From positions 1,736,001 through 1,800,000 of the forward strand of contig NZ_JAODVR010000001.1 in NCBI RefSeq assembly GCF_025399835.1: a DNA stretch of 64,000 nucleotides, written 5' to 3'. The DNA is from Haloarchaeobius sp. HME9146 (GTDB taxonomy: Archaea; Halobacteriota; Halobacteria; Halobacteriales; Natrialbaceae). The translations under genes and the position numbers were made by a program. Of the stretch, positions 46,305 through 55,664 are shown piece by piece. The notes under the pieces are model-generated. The model was not told the DNA's origin, ran no database searches, and saw only the letters and a list, made by a program, of their open reading frames with translations. Position 1 is the stretch's first letter. The number at the start of each line of letters is the position of its first letter.

Positions 46305-46886
46305 TCACCGCTCGCCGTGGGATTTCGTGACTTCGTACCGTTCGACTGCATTCCTGAGCCGACGCACCTCGTCGCGCACGGCGCGCCACTGGTCGAGGCT
46401 GCCCGGGATGTCCGTCGTCGATTCGTACCGCTGTTTCTGTGAGAGCACGATCCGCTGGACGCTGGCGGGGTCCTCGACGTTCCAGAACGCCAGTTCCGTC
46501 CCGCCGCCACCGGCCGTGTCTATCTCGACGGTCCCGTAGCCGAACAGGTTCCCGACCGCGGACTGCTCGTACGAGGAGTTCTGGACGCTCTCGAAGTCCG
46601 CGCTCAGGACGGTCCGGGAGAGCCCGCCGGTCTTGCGGTAACACGCCTGGTTCGTCACGAGGTACTCCGTGTTGATGACCTGGAAGTACGCGGCGACGGG
46701 TGGGAGAAGGGCGATGACGAGCCCCACCACGACGATGAGGGTTTCGCCGGTGACCACTACGAGGGTCGCAGCACCGGCGAGGACGAACAGGCTCACCAGC
46801 AGCGACGGCAGGACCGACTGGATGCGTGGCTTCGCCGTCCACAGCACCTCTTCGCCCTCGTCGGCGGTGAACCACGACTCGGTCAT
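46305..46886 (-). CDS. PH-domain (bPH2) membrane protein, downstream paralogue
   Basis: The 193-residue product has an N-terminal acidic start (ESWFTADEGEEVLWTAKPRI), two transmembrane helices (about 28-48 and 49-70) and a bacterial PH-like domain (NTEYLVTNQACYRKTGGLSR...YGTVEIDTAGGGGTELAFWN). The C-terminal part (about 145-193) is helical and charged. It is a paralogue of the upstream gene, which it overlaps by four bases, so the two probably form a hetero-oligomer. Family members are linked to membrane stress or lipid binding, but without proof. Confidence 0.88.
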   Translation of the reverse strand: MTESWFTADEGEEVLWTAKPRIQSVLPSLLVSLFVLAGAATLVVVTGETLIVVVGLVIALLPPVAAYFQVINTEYLVTNQACYRKTGGLSRTVLSADFESVQNSSYEQSAVGNLFGYGTVEIDTAGGGGTELAFWNVEDPASVQRIVLSQKQRYESTTDIPGSLDQWRAVRDEVRRLRNAVERYEVTKSHGER

Positions 46887-47473
46887 CGGTCGGTGTTCTC
46901 CCAGTCGAAGTCGTCGGTACTGCCCGCCTGGTTCGAGTCGGGTGTCTCGCCCTCGATGCGCTCGAAGGACTCGCGGATGGCGCGGAGTTCGACCAGGATG
47001 TCGTTGAGCACCTGTTCTTTGTCCTCGTCGCCGTCTTTCTGCGTGCCACGGGCCTGCTTGATGCGCTTGTTGATGAGCTCCTGGACCTGCTTGGGGTCAG
47101 AGACGGCCATGAACTGCATCTCGACGCCGGAGCCGCCGGCGGTGGAGATGTCGACGTTCCCGAAACCGAACTGCTTGCCGAGGAAGCTCTCGCTGAAGGA
47201 GATGTTCTGGACCTTGTCGAAGTCGATCTTCTGGACGTCTCGCGAGAGGATACCGGTCTTCTTGTAGAGGCCGTCGGTCGTGACGACGTACTCGGTGTTC
47301 TCGCGCTGGAGGTACGCCCCCACGACGATGGGGATGCCGATGAGGACGAGACACAGCGGCAACCCGATGATGAGGGCGGGATAGATGCTCTTGGCGTCGG
47401 GGATGCCCGACCAGACGATCTCCTCGTCTTCGTCGAGCGTCAACCAATCGTAGGCGGACTCGGTGGAGGCCAT
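46883..47473 (-). CDS. PH-domain (bPH2) membrane protein, upstream paralogue
   Basis: The 196-residue product has LDEDEEIVWSGIPDAKSIYP, two close transmembrane helices (about 31-52), and a PH-like domain (NTEYVVTTDGLYKKTGILSR, FGFGNVDISTAGGSGVEMQF). A charged coiled-coil-like tail follows (RGTQKDGDEDKEQVLNDILV). It shares the layout of the following gene, evidence of a local duplication. Its ATG at 47473 lies 78 bases after the P-type ATPase stop on the same strand, so a joint transcript is possible. Confidence 0.88.
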   Translation of the reverse strand: MASTESAYDWLTLDEDEEIVWSGIPDAKSIYPALIIGLPLCLVLIGIPIVVGAYLQRENTEYVVTTDGLYKKTGILSRDVQKIDFDKVQNISFSESFLGKQFGFGNVDISTAGGSGVEMQFMAVSDPKQVQELINKRIKQARGTQKDGDEDKEQVLNDILVELRAIRESFERIEGETPDSNQAGSTDDFDWENTDR

Positions 47474-47551: not shown

Positions 47552-49876
47552 TCAGTCCCCGTCAGGGGCCGAAACCCGGGCGAGCCGCATCGCGTTACCC
47601 GTGACGGCGGTCGTCATTCCGACGTCCCCGGCGAGCACGACGAGCCAGAGCGGGATTGCGAAGACGGGGATGAGGACCGCGAGGACGGCCTTCACCGCGA
47701 GACTGCCCCAGACGTTCTGGCGGATGACGCCGTTGGTCTTCCGGGCGAGGTCGACCAGGTAGGGCAGGCGCGAGAGGTCGTCGGTCAGCAGGGCGATGTC
47801 CGCCGTCTCGATGGCGGTGTCGCTGCCGGCCGCGCCCATCGCGATGCCCACGTCGGCGGTCGCGAGCGCGGGTGCGTCGTTGACGCCGTCGCCGACCATC
47901 GCGACCGTTCCCTGTTCCTTGAGGGCGGCGACCGCGTCGGTCTTGTCCTCGGGGAGCAGGTCGGCGCGGTACTCGTCGATACCGAGCTGGTCCGCGACGG
48001 CGCGAGCCGTGCCCTCGTTGTCGCCGGTGAGCATGACGACCGAGAGCCCCCGGTCCCGGAGCGCGGCGACCGTCTCCCTGGCCCCCTCGCGGACCGTGTC
48101 GCTGACCGCGATGACCCCTTCGAGGGCGTCTTCCGTCCCGACGAGGACGACCGTCTTCCCCTCGTTCTGGAGTCGGGGGATGGTGTCCTCGACGAGGTCG
48201 AGACAGCCTTCGCGCTCGCACTGCTGGCGCATCTCGGGGCGGGCGACCCCCCCGTCGGTGGTCAGGTGGACGTGGTCGAGGTCGAACCCGAGGTCGGTGA
48301 ACAGGTCGGGTTTGCCCGCGTAGTGGGGCACGTCCCCGAGCGTGGCCTTCACGCCCTCACCGGTCAGGCTCTCGAAGCCCGACACCTCGTGGTGCTCGAC
48401 CCCGTTCTGTGCTGCGTGGCTGACGATGGCGTCGCCGATGGGGTGTTCGGACCGGCTCTCCAGCCCGCGAGCGCACCGGAGCACGTCCTCCTCGCTGTTC
48501 CCGTTCAGGGGGACGACGTCGGTGACGGCGAGTTCGCCCGTAGTGAGGGTCCCGGTCTTGTCGACGGCGACGATGTCCACGTCGCCCATCGTCTCCAGTC
48601 GGTCACCGCCCTTCACGAGGACGGCGCGCTTGGCCGCGCTGGTCACCGCGGAGACGACGCTCACGGGCGTCGAGATGACGAACGCGCACGGGCAGGCGAT
48701 GACGAGCAGGCCGATGCCGTTGACCGCCCAGTGGACCCAGTCCGCACCGAACAGGAGCGGTGGGACCGCGGCGACGAGAATCGCGACGCTCGTCACCAGC
48801 GGGGTGTAGTACTGGGCGAAGCGCTCGACGAACCGCTCGCGCTCGGTCTTGTTCGACTGCGCGTCGGTCACGAGGTCGACGATGCGCGCCAGCGTGGACT
48901 CGCTGGCGGGCGCGGTCGTCTCGACCTCGAGGTAGCCCTGCTCGTTGACCGTTCCTGCGAACACCTCGTCGCCGCGGGCCTTGTCGACCGGGACGGACTC
49001 GCCCGTGATGGGGGCCTGGTTCACCGCGGACTCGCCGTCACGGACGAGGCCGTCGACCGGAATCTTCTCGCCGGGCTGGACGAGGACGACCTCGCCGACG
49101 CGGACGTCCTCGGCGGGAATCTCGACCTGTTCGCCGTCGCGTCGCACCACGGCCGTCTCGGGCGCGAGGTCGAGCAACTCGTCGAGCGACCGGCGGGCAC
49201 GCTGTACCGAGAACCGTTCGAGCAACTCGGCGACGTTGAAGAGGAACGCCAGCGAGGCGGCCTCGATGAGCAGGTTCTCGCCGGGCACGAAGACGGTGAT
49301 GCCCGTCGCGGCGAGGATGGCCGCCGTCATCAGGAAGTCGATGTCGAGGCTCAGGTTCTTCGCGGAGTAGTAGCCGTTGCGGAGGATGACCTGCCCGCCC
49401 GCGACGACCGCCCCGAGCAACAGGGCGTCGGAGAGCGTGTAGGACTGCTCGAGGGCCGTCGCGAGGACGGGGTTCATCCCGACGACGATGACCGCGAGGG
49501 CCAGCGCGACGAAGCTGCCGGAGGCGATGGTCTTCAGCCCGCGCGGGCTGGTCCAGACCGTGTCGTCGCTCTCGTCGTCCTCGTCGCGTACCGCGTAGCC
49601 AGCGCCCTCCACCGCGGCCACGATGGCCCCGCGGCCGGTCCGGTCGGGGTCGTACCCGACGACTAGCGTCCCGGTGGTCGGACGCGTGTCGACCGCGAGC
49701 ACGCCGTCGACGCCGGAGACGCTCCCGTCCACCTTGCTCGCACAGGACGGGCAATCCATGTCGGGCACGTCGAGTCGCGCCGTCGCGGGGGCGTCGGCTA
49801 CCGAGGCAACGGACCCCGCTTCCTTCGACACCGAATCGGAACAGTCACACGACTCGGTCGTACAATCGTCACTCAT
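47552..49876 (-). CDS. Zn/Cd/Pb-type P1B heavy-metal-exporting ATPase
   Basis: The 774-residue metal pump has a Cys-rich N-terminus (DCTTESCDCSDS), an HMA domain with MDCPSCASK (C42, C45), the translocation motif CPC (C395, C397) and phosphorylated D439 in DKTGTLT. It also has SEHPIG and GDGVNDAPAL. The last helices keep a Lys in SLAVKAVL and an Asp in LAGDVG at the places of the ZntA Lys and Asp that define the Zn/Cd/Pb class. So zinc or cadmium export is more likely than copper. Upstream ACGTTATTAAGTCGG holds a promoter box. Confidence 0.94.
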   Translation of the reverse strand: MSDDCTTESCDCSDSVSKEAGSVASVADAPATARLDVPDMDCPSCASKVDGSVSGVDGVLAVDTRPTTGTLVVGYDPDRTGRGAIVAAVEGAGYAVRDEDDESDDTVWTSPRGLKTIASGSFVALALAVIVVGMNPVLATALEQSYTLSDALLLGAVVAGGQVILRNGYYSAKNLSLDIDFLMTAAILAATGITVFVPGENLLIEAASLAFLFNVAELLERFSVQRARRSLDELLDLAPETAVVRRDGEQVEIPAEDVRVGEVVLVQPGEKIPVDGLVRDGESAVNQAPITGESVPVDKARGDEVFAGTVNEQGYLEVETTAPASESTLARIVDLVTDAQSNKTERERFVERFAQYYTPLVTSVAILVAAVPPLLFGADWVHWAVNGIGLLVIACPCAFVISTPVSVVSAVTSAAKRAVLVKGGDRLETMGDVDIVAVDKTGTLTTGELAVTDVVPLNGNSEEDVLRCARGLESRSEHPIGDAIVSHAAQNGVEHHEVSGFESLTGEGVKATLGDVPHYAGKPDLFTDLGFDLDHVHLTTDGGVARPEMRQQCEREGCLDLVEDTIPRLQNEGKTVVLVGTEDALEGVIAVSDTVREGARETVAALRDRGLSVVMLTGDNEGTARAVADQLGIDEYRADLLPEDKTDAVAALKEQGTVAMVGDGVNDAPALATADVGIAMGAAGSDTAIETADIALLTDDLSRLPYLVDLARKTNGVIRQNVWGSLAVKAVLAVLIPVFAIPLWLVVLAGDVGMTTAVTGNAMRLARVSAPDGD

Positions 49877-50095
49877 TGCCTGACGGTAGTCGTCCGAACG
49901 TTATTAAGTCGGCTGCTACGAATCGGGGGTAGGATGGTATTTCTTAACAAAACGAACGAGATTAGTTAACAACGTCGGTGCAGCCTCCGGGCCGCTGGCG
50001 CCGCCGACCCGGCAGGGGCACGGCCCCACCGGGTCCCGAAATCCGTGTGTTGGACACTGAAAACTCATATACGATGAAACCCAACGGGACAAGCG

Positions 50096-51085
50096 ATGGC
50101 TGTGGCCGACCGACAATCCTGTGACGGCTGCGACCGCCAGTTCTCCCTCGAGCGCCTGGCCACCGTCCGGATGCCCGGCGGCTCACGATCGGTCTGCTGT
50201 CCGGACTGTCGAGCGTTCGCCGAGTCCGTCAGCTCCAGGGCGGAGTTCGAACGAGACGAACACGAGTGTGACGGCTGTTCGCGAGCGTTCTCGCTGGCGG
50301 ACCTGACCACCGTCGAGATGCCCGGCGGCTCACGCTCCGTCTGCTGTCCCGAGTGTCGAGCGTTCGCCGAGTCCGTCAGCACCAAGGCTGAACTCGGCGA
50401 GCGTCGCCGGGCCTGTGACGGGTGTTCACGGGAGTTCGCGCTCGACAACCTCGCCGTCGTCGACATGCCGGGTGGGAAGCAATCCATCTGCTGTCCGGAG
50501 TGTCGAACGTTCGCCGAGTCCGTCAGTAGCAAGGCAGAACTCGGGGACCGCCGCCGCGAATGTGACGGCTGTACCAGGGAGTTCCCCGTCTCGGACCTCG
50601 ACGAGATACTGCTCCCGGACGGAACGAGCGTGCTCTGCTGTGCGACGTGCAGCGAACACGCGCCCCAGGAGGAGGAGACCGACGACGTCGACGAGGACCG
50701 TCGACAGGACGCCGAACGCGAGACGGCGACCGAACTCGCGAACAAGGAACCCTCGAAGGCGATACAGACCCGCAACCTCTGTTCGCAGTGCAAGGAGTGG
50801 TGCTCGGTCGAACTCTACCGTGTCGAGATCAACGACAGGCGGACCGAGAACTTCTGCCCGGACTGTCTGGAACTCGCCCGGAGCCGCGGCATCGTCACGA
50901 ACGTCCGCATGCGACAGGCCGAAGCCTACGAGACGCTCGGCATCGACGGGGCGTCGGACGCGGAGGAACTGCGTGATGCGTACATCGAGCGCGTGAAGGA
51001 GGTCCATCCCGACCGGGCGGGCGGGAGCAGAGCCGCGTTCAAGGCCGTACAGCGGGCGTACGAACGACTCGACGCGGAGTTCTAG
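50096..51085 (+). CDS. Protein with four tandem zinc-ribbon repeats and a C-terminal J domain
   Basis: The 329-residue product has four Cys4 repeats with an exact 49-residue period (CDGC starting at C9, C58, C107 and C156; CCPDC/CCPEC at 34-38, 83-87, 132-136; CCATC at 181-185). An acidic linker (190-225), a fifth, different Cys4 ribbon (C229/C232, C254/C257) and a J domain (about 276-329) with the HPD triad at H304-P305-D306 follow. J domains stimulate Hsp70 (DnaK) ATPase, and the ribbons may bind substrate proteins or RNA. It is divergent from the Zn ATPase and its stop abuts that of a TIR protein. I know no characterised homologue. Confidence 0.9.
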   Translation: MAVADRQSCDGCDRQFSLERLATVRMPGGSRSVCCPDCRAFAESVSSRAEFERDEHECDGCSRAFSLADLTTVEMPGGSRSVCCPECRAFAESVSTKAELGERRRACDGCSREFALDNLAVVDMPGGKQSICCPECRTFAESVSSKAELGDRRRECDGCTREFPVSDLDEILLPDGTSVLCCATCSEHAPQEEETDDVDEDRRQDAERETATELANKEPSKAIQTRNLCSQCKEWCSVELYRVEINDRRTENFCPDCLELARSRGIVTNVRMRQAEAYETLGIDGASDAEELRDAYIERVKEVHPDRAGGSRAAFKAVQRAYERLDAEF

Positions 51086-51709
51086 TCACTGGGTCGCCGG
51101 GCCGGCCGGGTCCTGCCGTTCGACGTAGCCCAGCGTGACCGGGTTGAACAGGTACCGCGAGTTGCACTCGTCACAGGTCGCAAGCAGCGGCTGGTTGTGC
51201 TTGTACTGCTGCCAGAGGCCTTTCTGCGTCGCGTCGATGTCCAGAATCACTGGATGGTTACAGCCCTCGAAGTTACACGGGAACCGGACGTACCAGTTCG
51301 GCGTCGAGAGCGTGCCGAGTGGCGCGAGTTCGGCACGCAGGCGACAGAGCAGGTTGAACACGGTCACCGGTATCTCGTCACGGTCGAGCTGGACGCCCTC
51401 GACGTTCGCGATGTAGCCCGGTCGGTCGACGCCCTCGTCGTACATCGGCAGCACCGGGACGCCCTTGGCGACGGCGAACCCGACCTCCTGGTTCACCCAC
51501 GGCTCGGTCACGTGGTCGCGAGTGAACAGCGCGATGACGAGGTCGGAGTTCGCGAGCCGCCCCTTGAGGTCTGTGCGGGTTCGGCCCGACTCGATCTCCT
51601 CCATGGCGAGATAGAAATCCATAGGGAGGTTCCGCACCGTCCCGAAGAGCTCCTGGGCCAGTTCGAGGTCCTCGGCCGCGTGCGACACGAAGACCTGCGC
51701 GTCGGTCAT
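51086..51709 (-). CDS. TIR-domain protein with C-terminal zinc ribbon
   Basis: The 207-residue product starts with a TIR fold (VFVSHAAEDLELAQEL at 6-21, DLVIALFTRDH around 56-66). The W71-x3-E75 of PWVNQEVGFA matches the catalytic-Glu position of NAD-cleaving TIR domains. From about 140 a Cys4 ribbon follows (C145/C150, C179/C182). TIR proteins often act in antiphage defence or make NAD-derived signals; no Thoeris-type ThsA partner is visible. It converges on the J-domain gene with no base between the stops. Confidence 0.9.
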   Translation of the reverse strand: MTDAQVFVSHAAEDLELAQELFGTVRNLPMDFYLAMEEIESGRTRTDLKGRLANSDLVIALFTRDHVTEPWVNQEVGFAVAKGVPVLPMYDEGVDRPGYIANVEGVQLDRDEIPVTVFNLLCRLRAELAPLGTLSTPNWYVRFPCNFEGCNHPVILDIDATQKGLWQQYKHNQPLLATCDECNSRYLFNPVTLGYVERQDPAGPATQ

Positions 51710-51843: not shown

Positions 51844-52488
51844 TCAGAGCGGGGAGACGAGGTCTTCGAGCGCGGCACGCGGGTCCTCGGCCTTCGCGAC
51901 ACCGGAGGCGAGGAGGACGCCGGTCGACCCGAGTTCGCCGGCGGCTTCGAGGTCGTCACCGGTCGAGATGCCGGCACCACAGAGGACGTCGACGCTCTCG
52001 TCGACCGACTCGGCGGCCTCGACCGCGCCGGTGACGATGTCCGGGTCGGCCTGGCTCACGGGCGTCCCGGTCCCGATGAGTTCCGGGGGCTCGACCGCGA
52101 CCGAGTCCGGCCCCAGCGCGGCGGCCGCACCGATCTGGCGCGGGTTGTTCGCACAGACGATGGTCTCCAGGTCCGCGCGCTCGGCTGCTCGCAAGGAGCC
52201 GTCGATGTCGGCGAGCTTCAGCCGGTTCTCGGAGTGGTTCAGGAGCGTGCCGACCGCGCCAGCGTCAGCCGCGGCCTCGGCCAGCGTGCTGCCGGTGTGG
52301 CTGCCGTGCTCGACCGGGCTGACGTGCTGGGCCCACGTCTCGACGCCGGTCGCTGCCACGCGCTGCAGGTGCGCGGCCTGTGGTGCCACCGCGATACGGA
52401 CGCCAGAGTCGTCGCTCACGTTCGCTGCCGCTGTCGCGACCTCGACCGGGTCACACGGGTATGCCTTCAGATTGACGAGTACGAACAT
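51844..52488 (-). CDS. tpiA: Triosephosphate isomerase
   Basis: This glycolytic/gluconeogenic enzyme is of the short archaeal form (214 residues, against about 250 in bacteria). It begins [11 protein letters not shown] (substrate-binding Asn/Lys), has TLLNHSENR (catalytic His), [12 protein letters not shown] (catalytic Glu and flexible loop) and VLCGAGIS plus [11 protein letters not shown] for the phosphate site. Single gene; its pathway partner operon fba-fbp is 10 kb away. Confidence 0.95.
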
Positions 52489-54626: not shown

Positions 54627-55664
54627 ATGAGCAACGAGTCGCTTTCTGACGGGGACCTCCGGAACACAGGGATGTCCCTCAAGCACGACCGCGAGTGGGA
54701 CTACGAACTCGACCGCATCATCGAGGCGGTCGAGGAGCGCGACGCGACCAAGGTCGGCCTGCAGTTCCCCGAGGGACTGAAACGCCGCGGCCCGAAGGTC
54801 GCCGACGACCTCCGCGAACTCCTGCCCGACGAGGTCACCGTCCTCATCTCCGGCCAGCCGTGTTACGGTGCCTGCGACCTCGACACCTTCCTCATGCGCC
54901 GGACCGACGTGTTCGTCCACTTCGGCCACTCCCCGATGAAGGAGTCGGACAAGATCATCTACGTCCCGCTGTTCTCCAACGTCGAGGTCGGCCCTATCAT
55001 GGAGCAGGCCGTCGAGGAGGAGCTCGAAACGGGCGACGTGGGTCTCGTCACGACCGCCCAGCACATGAACCGCTTCGAGGAGATGAAGGAGTGGCTCACG
55101 GAGCAGGGCTTCGACGTCCACACTCGCAAGGGCGACGACCGCCTCACCCACGAGGGGCAGGTCCTCGGCTGCAACTACGCCTCCGCGGACATCGACGCCG
55201 ACCAGATACTCTACGTCGGCGGCGGCAAGTTCCACCCGCTCGGCCTCGCGATGGAACACCCCGACAAGAAGGTCGTCATCGCCGACCCCGTCAACAACGT
55301 CGTCACCGTGGCCGACACGGAGAAGTTCATGAAGCAGCGCTACGGCGCGGTCCACCGCGCCATGGACGCCGAGAAGTTCGGCGTCATCTTCTGCACGAAG
55401 ATCGGGCAGGGGCGCTGGGAGATCGCCGAGGAGATCGTCGACAACAACGACAACGCCTACCTCATCACCATGGACGAGGTCACGCCGGACCGCCTGCGTA
55501 ACTTCGACATGGACGCGTTCGTCAACACAGGCTGTCCGCGCATCACGACCGACGACGGCCCGCAGTTCCACAAGCCGATGCTCACCCCCCAGGAGTACAA
55601 GATAGCCATCGGCGAGGAACCGCTGGAGAACCTGGCGTTCGACACGTTCCACGGGACGTGGTGA
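54627..55664 (+). CDS. dph2: Diphthamide biosynthesis enzyme Dph2 (3-amino-3-carboxypropyl transferase)
   Basis: This Fe-S enzyme makes the first step of diphthamide on elongation factor 2 using S-adenosylmethionine. The 345-residue product has three cluster cysteines in the archaeal positions: C83 (GQPCYGACD), C182 (VLGCNYA) and C303 (NTGCPR). Structural motifs are VGLQFPEGL and YVGGGKFHPLGL. The ATG at 54627 is preceded by AGTTAATC about 15 and AGTTAACC about 30 bases upstream. The 15-residue N-terminal tail before a second Met (54672) is polar. Confidence 0.95.
   Translation: MSNESLSDGDLRNTGMSLKHDREWDYELDRIIEAVEERDATKVGLQFPEGLKRRGPKVADDLRELLPDEVTVLISGQPCYGACDLDTFLMRRTDVFVHFGHSPMKESDKIIYVPLFSNVEVGPIMEQAVEEELETGDVGLVTTAQHMNRFEEMKEWLTEQGFDVHTRKGDDRLTHEGQVLGCNYASADIDADQILYVGGGKFHPLGLAMEHPDKKVVIADPVNNVVTVADTEKFMKQRYGAVHRAMDAEKFGVIFCTKIGQGRWEIAEEIVDNNDNAYLITMDEVTPDRLRNFDMDAFVNTGCPRITTDDGPQFHKPMLTPQEYKIAIGEEPLENLAFDTFHGTW

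Follow-up and report, generated by a model that had tools for sequence, protein, structure and literature searches.

A conserved haloarchaeal J-domain protein with an array of predicted zinc fingers ahead of its J domain

The window, i.e., the stretch of 64,000 nucleotides from Haloarchaeobius sp. HME9146 analysed here, contains a gene (50096..51085, +) for a protein of 329 aa in which five finger units are followed by a C-terminal J domain. By the sequence criteria tested this finger-J protein is a J-domain protein, not a DnaJ. The probable reading, in our view, is a class C J protein with a specialised task, bringing the targets of its finger array to DnaK. As judged from the sequences, the form with four plus one fingers (4+1), present in two Haloarchaeobius species, arose locally inside an older family when the first finger was amplified in tandem.

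The J domain and its family

The gene is a single open reading frame. An antisense reading of the same stretch was rejected, as stop codons interrupt the repeats. Ahead of the gene, at -30 to -25 from the ATG, is a TATA-like box (CATATA, 50066..50071, +). This position is A/T-rich in the family members compared: in the upstream regions of 55 members the A/T content at -31 to -25 amounts to 78-98%. A TATA element at -31 to -25 is the spacing expected for leaderless transcripts of haloarchaea, and the box suggests such a transcript for the J gene. Since it is conserved upstream of 55 members, the start codon and the expression of the gene are plausible.

The J domain covers 50909..51082 (+; aa 272-329). 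PF00226 matches it with 37 bits against a cutoff of 27.8, and matches 40/40 aligned members with E <= 0.01. The model has three helices of high pLDDT (residues 274-281, 289-303 and 312-326) and ends after helix III, without a helix IV. The HPD motif (51005..51013, +; aa 304-306) is located in the model between helices II and III. It is invariant in 40/40 aligned members and present in all 58 parsed homologs, in nearly all of which it is positioned about 50 residues past the last CxxC. Further invariant residues in the 40 members are K301 in helix II, G310, F315, V318, A321, Y322, R324 and L325. Structure comparisons of the J domain returned Tim16 (Z 9.4, 1.6 A over 57 residues), Sis1 (Z 7.8) and DnaK-bound DnaJ. 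The initial annotation had taken the last ~55 residues for a J domain with HPD at 304-306; profile, model and structure matches bear this out. DnaK itself was found in 79 of the 80 genomes checked, and in the window genome a J-domain match directly adjoins dnaK; this makes the delivery of clients to DnaK, as envisaged in the initial annotation, plausible.

Class A DnaJ proteins share a J domain and CxxC zinc modules with the finger-J protein. However, the order of domains is reversed here and the fingers are unlike the CxxCxGxG domain, both of which had been recognised at the outset. PF00684, the CxxCxGxG model, matches 1/40 members (E 0.0018). The DnaJ equivalog TIGR02349 yields 27.4 bits against a cutoff of 377.2, on the J part only, which places the protein outside class A. 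Because neither a G/F-rich region nor a C-terminal class A substrate domain is seen in the finger-J protein, and because DnaJ models match its J part only, it is class C by architecture.

The nearest sequence relative of this J domain in the same genome belongs to a membrane J protein (L096:4594-5166, -). Its C-terminal J domain is alike (53% identical); its N-terminus is apparently transmembrane instead of fingered and lacks CxxC. Similar C-terminal J-only matches occur in many haloarchaea. Another protein of the genome (L095:4375-5019, +) is a fusion of a J domain with a 2Fe-2S ferredoxin-like domain (CRGGACANC) at the C-terminus.

The finger-J family was identified in 77 of 392 haloarchaeal genomes, 70 of them from the family of the window genome (Natrialbaceae according to the named loci), five from Halostella and two from one further genus; all six sampled Haloarchaeobius species possess the protein. 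The scan of contigs returned nothing with a single-protein query and 34 loci with an alignment-based one. When 393 genomes across the phylum were searched with a profile, no full-length members were detected outside the three families, J-domain matches only. Fifty-eight homologs were parsed and 40 members were aligned for conservation. Nearly all of the 58 have the same core architecture of two N-terminal fingers, one distinct finger and the J domain. Typically, a unit A (CxxC-x22-CxxC) is followed by a unit B, usually ~50 residues on, a variable acidic linker, a unit C and J. In the 40 aligned members each of the twelve cysteines in these three units is invariant, as is HPD. No Pfam or NCBIfam model covering the whole protein was found. 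The initial annotation knew of no characterised example, and this view has held: in Pfam, NCBIfam and the literature covered, which lay mostly outside subscription journals, no entry or paper on the finger-J architecture was found, and in this literature none on the TIR-finger neighbour described below.

The finger array

CDGC pairs at C9, C58, C107 and C156, spaced by exactly 49 residues, and a differing fifth unit behind them were the features that had first drawn attention; both descriptions are accurate. Each CDGC has a partner CxxC 26 residues further on (C35, C84, C133, C182), i.e., CxxC-x22-CxxC, and TRF independently reports a 147-bp period within the J gene.

Units 1 to 3 are of type A. 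Unit 1 (50108..50254, +; aa 5-53) has its cysteines at C9/C12/C35/C38. Unit 2 (50255..50401, +; aa 54-102) is an extra copy, 71% identical to unit 1, which groups with unit 1 of the congeners. Unit 3 (50402..50548, +; aa 103-151) is 63-69% identical to units 1-2. At the protein level the three share 63-71% identity with one another and 54-56% with the one unit A that congeners have. Unit 4 (50549..50671, +; aa 152-192), of type B, shares only 28-32% with units 1-3, and 58-60% with unit 2 of congeners. An acidic linker of low confidence follows (50672..50770, +; aa 193-225; pLDDT <50 at 218-222), which in the window protein has a net charge of -0.21 per residue and varies in length in the family. 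Unit 5 (50771..50908, +; aa 226-271), of type C, contains C229/C232 and C254/C257 and is modelled mostly at a pLDDT of about 92-95.

The same 4+1 array exists in the sister species G001; the other four sampled Haloarchaeobius congeners have 2+1. Between the window species and G001, units 1, 3, 4 and 5 resemble their orthologues (71-84%) more than their paralogues, with a tie for unit 2. Therefore, the triplication of unit A is most likely older than the split of these two species. By the NG86 method dN is below dS in every unit pair (0.19-0.83 vs 0.49-1.83), thus the finger copies are maintained as protein. In Halorubellus the array is 3+1; its additional unit is a different one and apparently arose independently. 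The array of four repeats emphasised in the initial annotation is real, yet it does not define the family: two N-terminal units are found in the majority of relatives.

AlphaFold2 was run on the 40-row alignment for the protein chain alone. With a mean pLDDT of 85 and a pTM of 0.37, the model presents the domains as beads, and their arrangement is not defined. In all five units a knuckle and a short hairpin are followed by a helix which starts at the second CxxC, in unit 1 from residue 36; in unit 4 the helix is short. Unit 1 matches the FYVE domain 1vfy in a VIA structure comparison (Z 5.2, 47 residues, 2.3 A), Foldseek matches of the model include eL24-type chains from archaeal ribosomes, and some of the 40 family members are recognised by TRASH models. 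According to the model the fingers are probably treble clefs (TRASH/eL24/FYVE-like) rather than beta-ribbons. As a helix begins at the second CxxC in every unit there, the term 'zinc ribbon', under which the repeats had been introduced, is probably the wrong name for a fold which structure prediction gives as treble clef. TRASH, L24e and FYVE fingers as well as PF12156 share with the finger units the CxxC...CCxxC pattern, the hairpin and the helix. The finger-J protein differs in that it is a tandem array fused to J, and no curated model covers this fusion. PF12156 scores 37.4 bits (cutoff 27), a value summed over the repeats and obtained with model positions 1-39 of 86 only; in unit 1 it matches aa 8-46.

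The convergent TIR gene and other neighbours

The next gene, on the opposite strand (51086..51709, -), codes for a TIR protein (PF13676, 39 bits vs 28) of 207 aa with a C-terminal zinc finger, a candidate partner of the J protein. This gene, the part of the context that tells most, is not mentioned in the initial annotation. Glu75 (51485..51487, -), the candidate catalytic glutamate of a WxxxE motif, is invariant in 73/73 TIR homologs and aligns with WPARE of 4c7m. The zinc finger (51164..51277, -) has C145, C150, C179 and C182, all four likewise invariant in 73/73. The TIR model resembles SPARTA TIR-APAZ (Z 13.1), SARM1 (Z 11.9) and AbTir (Z 11.2), and also nucleoside deoxyribosyltransferases. 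By modelled fold and conserved Glu the neighbour resembles NAD-hydrolysing TIRs and is a predicted NADase with the immune-type fold of the Thoeris, SPARTA and SARM1 TIRs. Beyond TIR_2 no curated family matched the TIR protein above cutoff: PF08937 stayed below, ThsB matches in PADLOC were weak (E 4e-7), and PADLOC had no match for the finger-J protein. The TIR-finger family occurs in 90 of 392 haloarchaeal genomes, each time with a single match. It looks like a resident NADase, not like a mobile defence gene.

J and TIR genes are arranged tail-to-tail in 54 of 59 loci, Halostella and Halorubellus included. In the window their stop codons abut (51083-51088). Overall the stops are <=60 bp apart in 48 of 53 loci, with overlaps of up to 31 bp. 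As these convergent stops abut or overlap in many species, an antisense overlap of the two transcripts would arise. Next in line after TIR is a tpiA-like gene (51844..52488, -), named from its own sequence, whose synteny is kept in 55 of 59 loci. Conserved adjacency is therefore no proof of a J-TIR link: tpiA is linked as faithfully.

Divergent from the J gene, a heavy-metal P-type ATPase is encoded at 47552-49876 (-), with the same arrangement in G001 and in the Halostella loci L042-L045 and L047. At 46305-47473 (-) two adjacent paralogous short membrane proteins are kept at the locus across Haloarchaeobius. A Dph4-like role, considered on account of dph2 at 54627-55664, was rejected, as dph2 is near J in only 8 loci.

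Among the 392 genomes 75 have J and TIR, 15 have TIR only, 2 have J only and 300 have neither. Genera g19 and g47 retain both genes, although these lie far from each other. Sister genera in the families of Halostella and g47 are without TIR, and the J search reported none there either. Outside Natrialbaceae, Halostella and g47 have both J and TIR, and within the sampling the others have neither. The raw counts look overwhelming, yet co-occurrence was rejected as proof of function. On a species tree from DnaK, GrpE and DnaJ of 79 genomes, TIR differs within only six independent pairs that are well supported; J mostly follows TIR in four or five of the six and does the opposite in none or one, which after this correction for phylogeny is not significant (p generally 0.06-0.125). 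Coevolution by mirror-tree was rejected as well: with the DnaK distance removed the partial correlation is 0.42 for J and TIR and 0.40 for J and tpiA, i.e., there is no excess.

Two J carriers, G117 and G240, have no TIR match at all and an intact J gene. No J gene was found beside the TIRs of the 15 TIR-only genomes, save one decayed remnant. This remnant (L109:2887-3243, +), in which one finger start is left, adjoins an intact TIR gene and looks like a loss in progress. The role of an obligate antitoxin of TIR was rejected for J, as 15 genomes keep TIR without it. The TIR-only genomes, the two J-only genomes and the locus with a decayed J indicate that J is neither indispensable to TIR nor strictly dependent on it.

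Could J be a dedicated chaperone or regulator of its neighbour? It would, with DnaK, keep TIR folded and inactive, or it would let TIR sense infection or proteotoxic stress, which would titrate the chaperone; TIR would then consume NAD+. The adjacency with closely spaced stops, the presence of TIR in 75 of 77 J carriers, the joint retention of unlinked genes in g19 and g47, the joint presence or sampled absence outside Natrialbaceae, and the NADase-type fold with its invariant Glu all speak in favour. A precedent exists in bacteria, where the NLR-like protein bNACHT25 needs DnaJ to sense phage (PMC12169576). There, the DnaJ is that of the host; here, the gene of a separate J protein adjoins the TIR gene. 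Against a dedicated regulator stand the independent pairs, a mirror-tree correlation no better than that of the equally linked tpiA, the genomes which have one gene without the other, and the absence of a common promoter in convergent genes. We regard a dedicated regulator as unlikely. Still less likely in our estimate is a chaperone-gated archaeal TIR module in which finger-J and DnaK would restrain the TIR NADase or make it respond to viral or proteotoxic stress. The J-TIR link is suggestive and serves as a lead; among single candidates for the target of the J protein, the TIR protein ranks first.

Proposed function and known relatives

The preferred reading, a class C J protein serving the targets of its fingers, follows a familiar logic: class C proteins combine a targeting module with a J domain which makes DnaK hydrolyse ATP on the target. 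The fingers would take up zinc as they fold and would recognise a specific target, either a protein or an assembly showing several copies; a multi-copy assembly is possible because finger number varies. The flexible acidic linker would let the J domain reach DnaK. HPD would then trigger ATP hydrolysis, whereupon DnaK would clamp and remodel the target or target complex. In the window species the extra fingers would add avidity, and the variation in array length, to which the extra unit of Halorubellus belongs, is what one would expect of a binding array. Against this reading stand the missing helix IV and the existence of J domains that have no Hsp70 activity.

An alternative anchors the fingers on RNA, the ribosome or the nucleoid: docked on a ribonucleoprotein, the protein would recruit DnaK through J, like Jjj1 and Zuotin. 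Treble clefs are common in ribosomal proteins, and the eL24-type chains among the Foldseek matches are in line with this. However, the units are net acidic or neutral, with family mean charges of -0.045, -0.113 and -0.068 per residue and -0.187 in the linker, although this is a weak argument because halophilic proteins are acidic generally. Further, no ribosomal gene was recognised among the conserved neighbours of the J gene. The RNA- or ribosome-bound option raised in the initial annotation is therefore not supported, and we rate it as improbable. Very improbable is a metal-homeostasis factor whose fingers sense or bind Cu/Zn and whose J domain helps to load or protect metalloproteins such as the divergent P-type ATPase: PF12156, a putative metal-binding domain of cation-transport ATPases, the TRASH matches and the ATPase gene, in Halostella too, point that way, yet only 9 of 59 loci have the ATPase close to J, PF12156 matches 10 of 40 members, and the four-Cys pattern is of the structural zinc site type.

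The class C proteins DjlA, Jjj1, Zuotin and Tim14 likewise join an HPD-bearing J domain to an unrelated targeting module, and the J domains of Tim14/16 and Sis1 are among the nearest structures. The finger-J protein is distinguished by its C-terminal J and its treble-clef array; a characterised member with the same layout was not found. In eukaryotes, DPH4/DNAJC24 and JJJ1/DNAJC21 combine J with a zinc module for specialised Hsp70 tasks. However, their J domain is N-terminal and their fingers are of the CSL or C2H2 type, unlike the treble-clef array predicted here.

J proteins choose the targets of Hsp70, and for archaea the literature covered says little about J proteins other than DnaJ. The finger-J proteins constitute a J family which is conserved and as yet without a name, and whose module for presumed target recognition is new. 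Since the copy number of fingers has changed within one genus, nature provides a test of finger number versus affinity. If TIR is indeed the target, this would be a case of chaperone control of a TIR enzyme in archaea, and a chaperone-gated TIR module, if true, would be a prokaryotic counterpart of the chaperone-assisted TIR immune receptors of plants.
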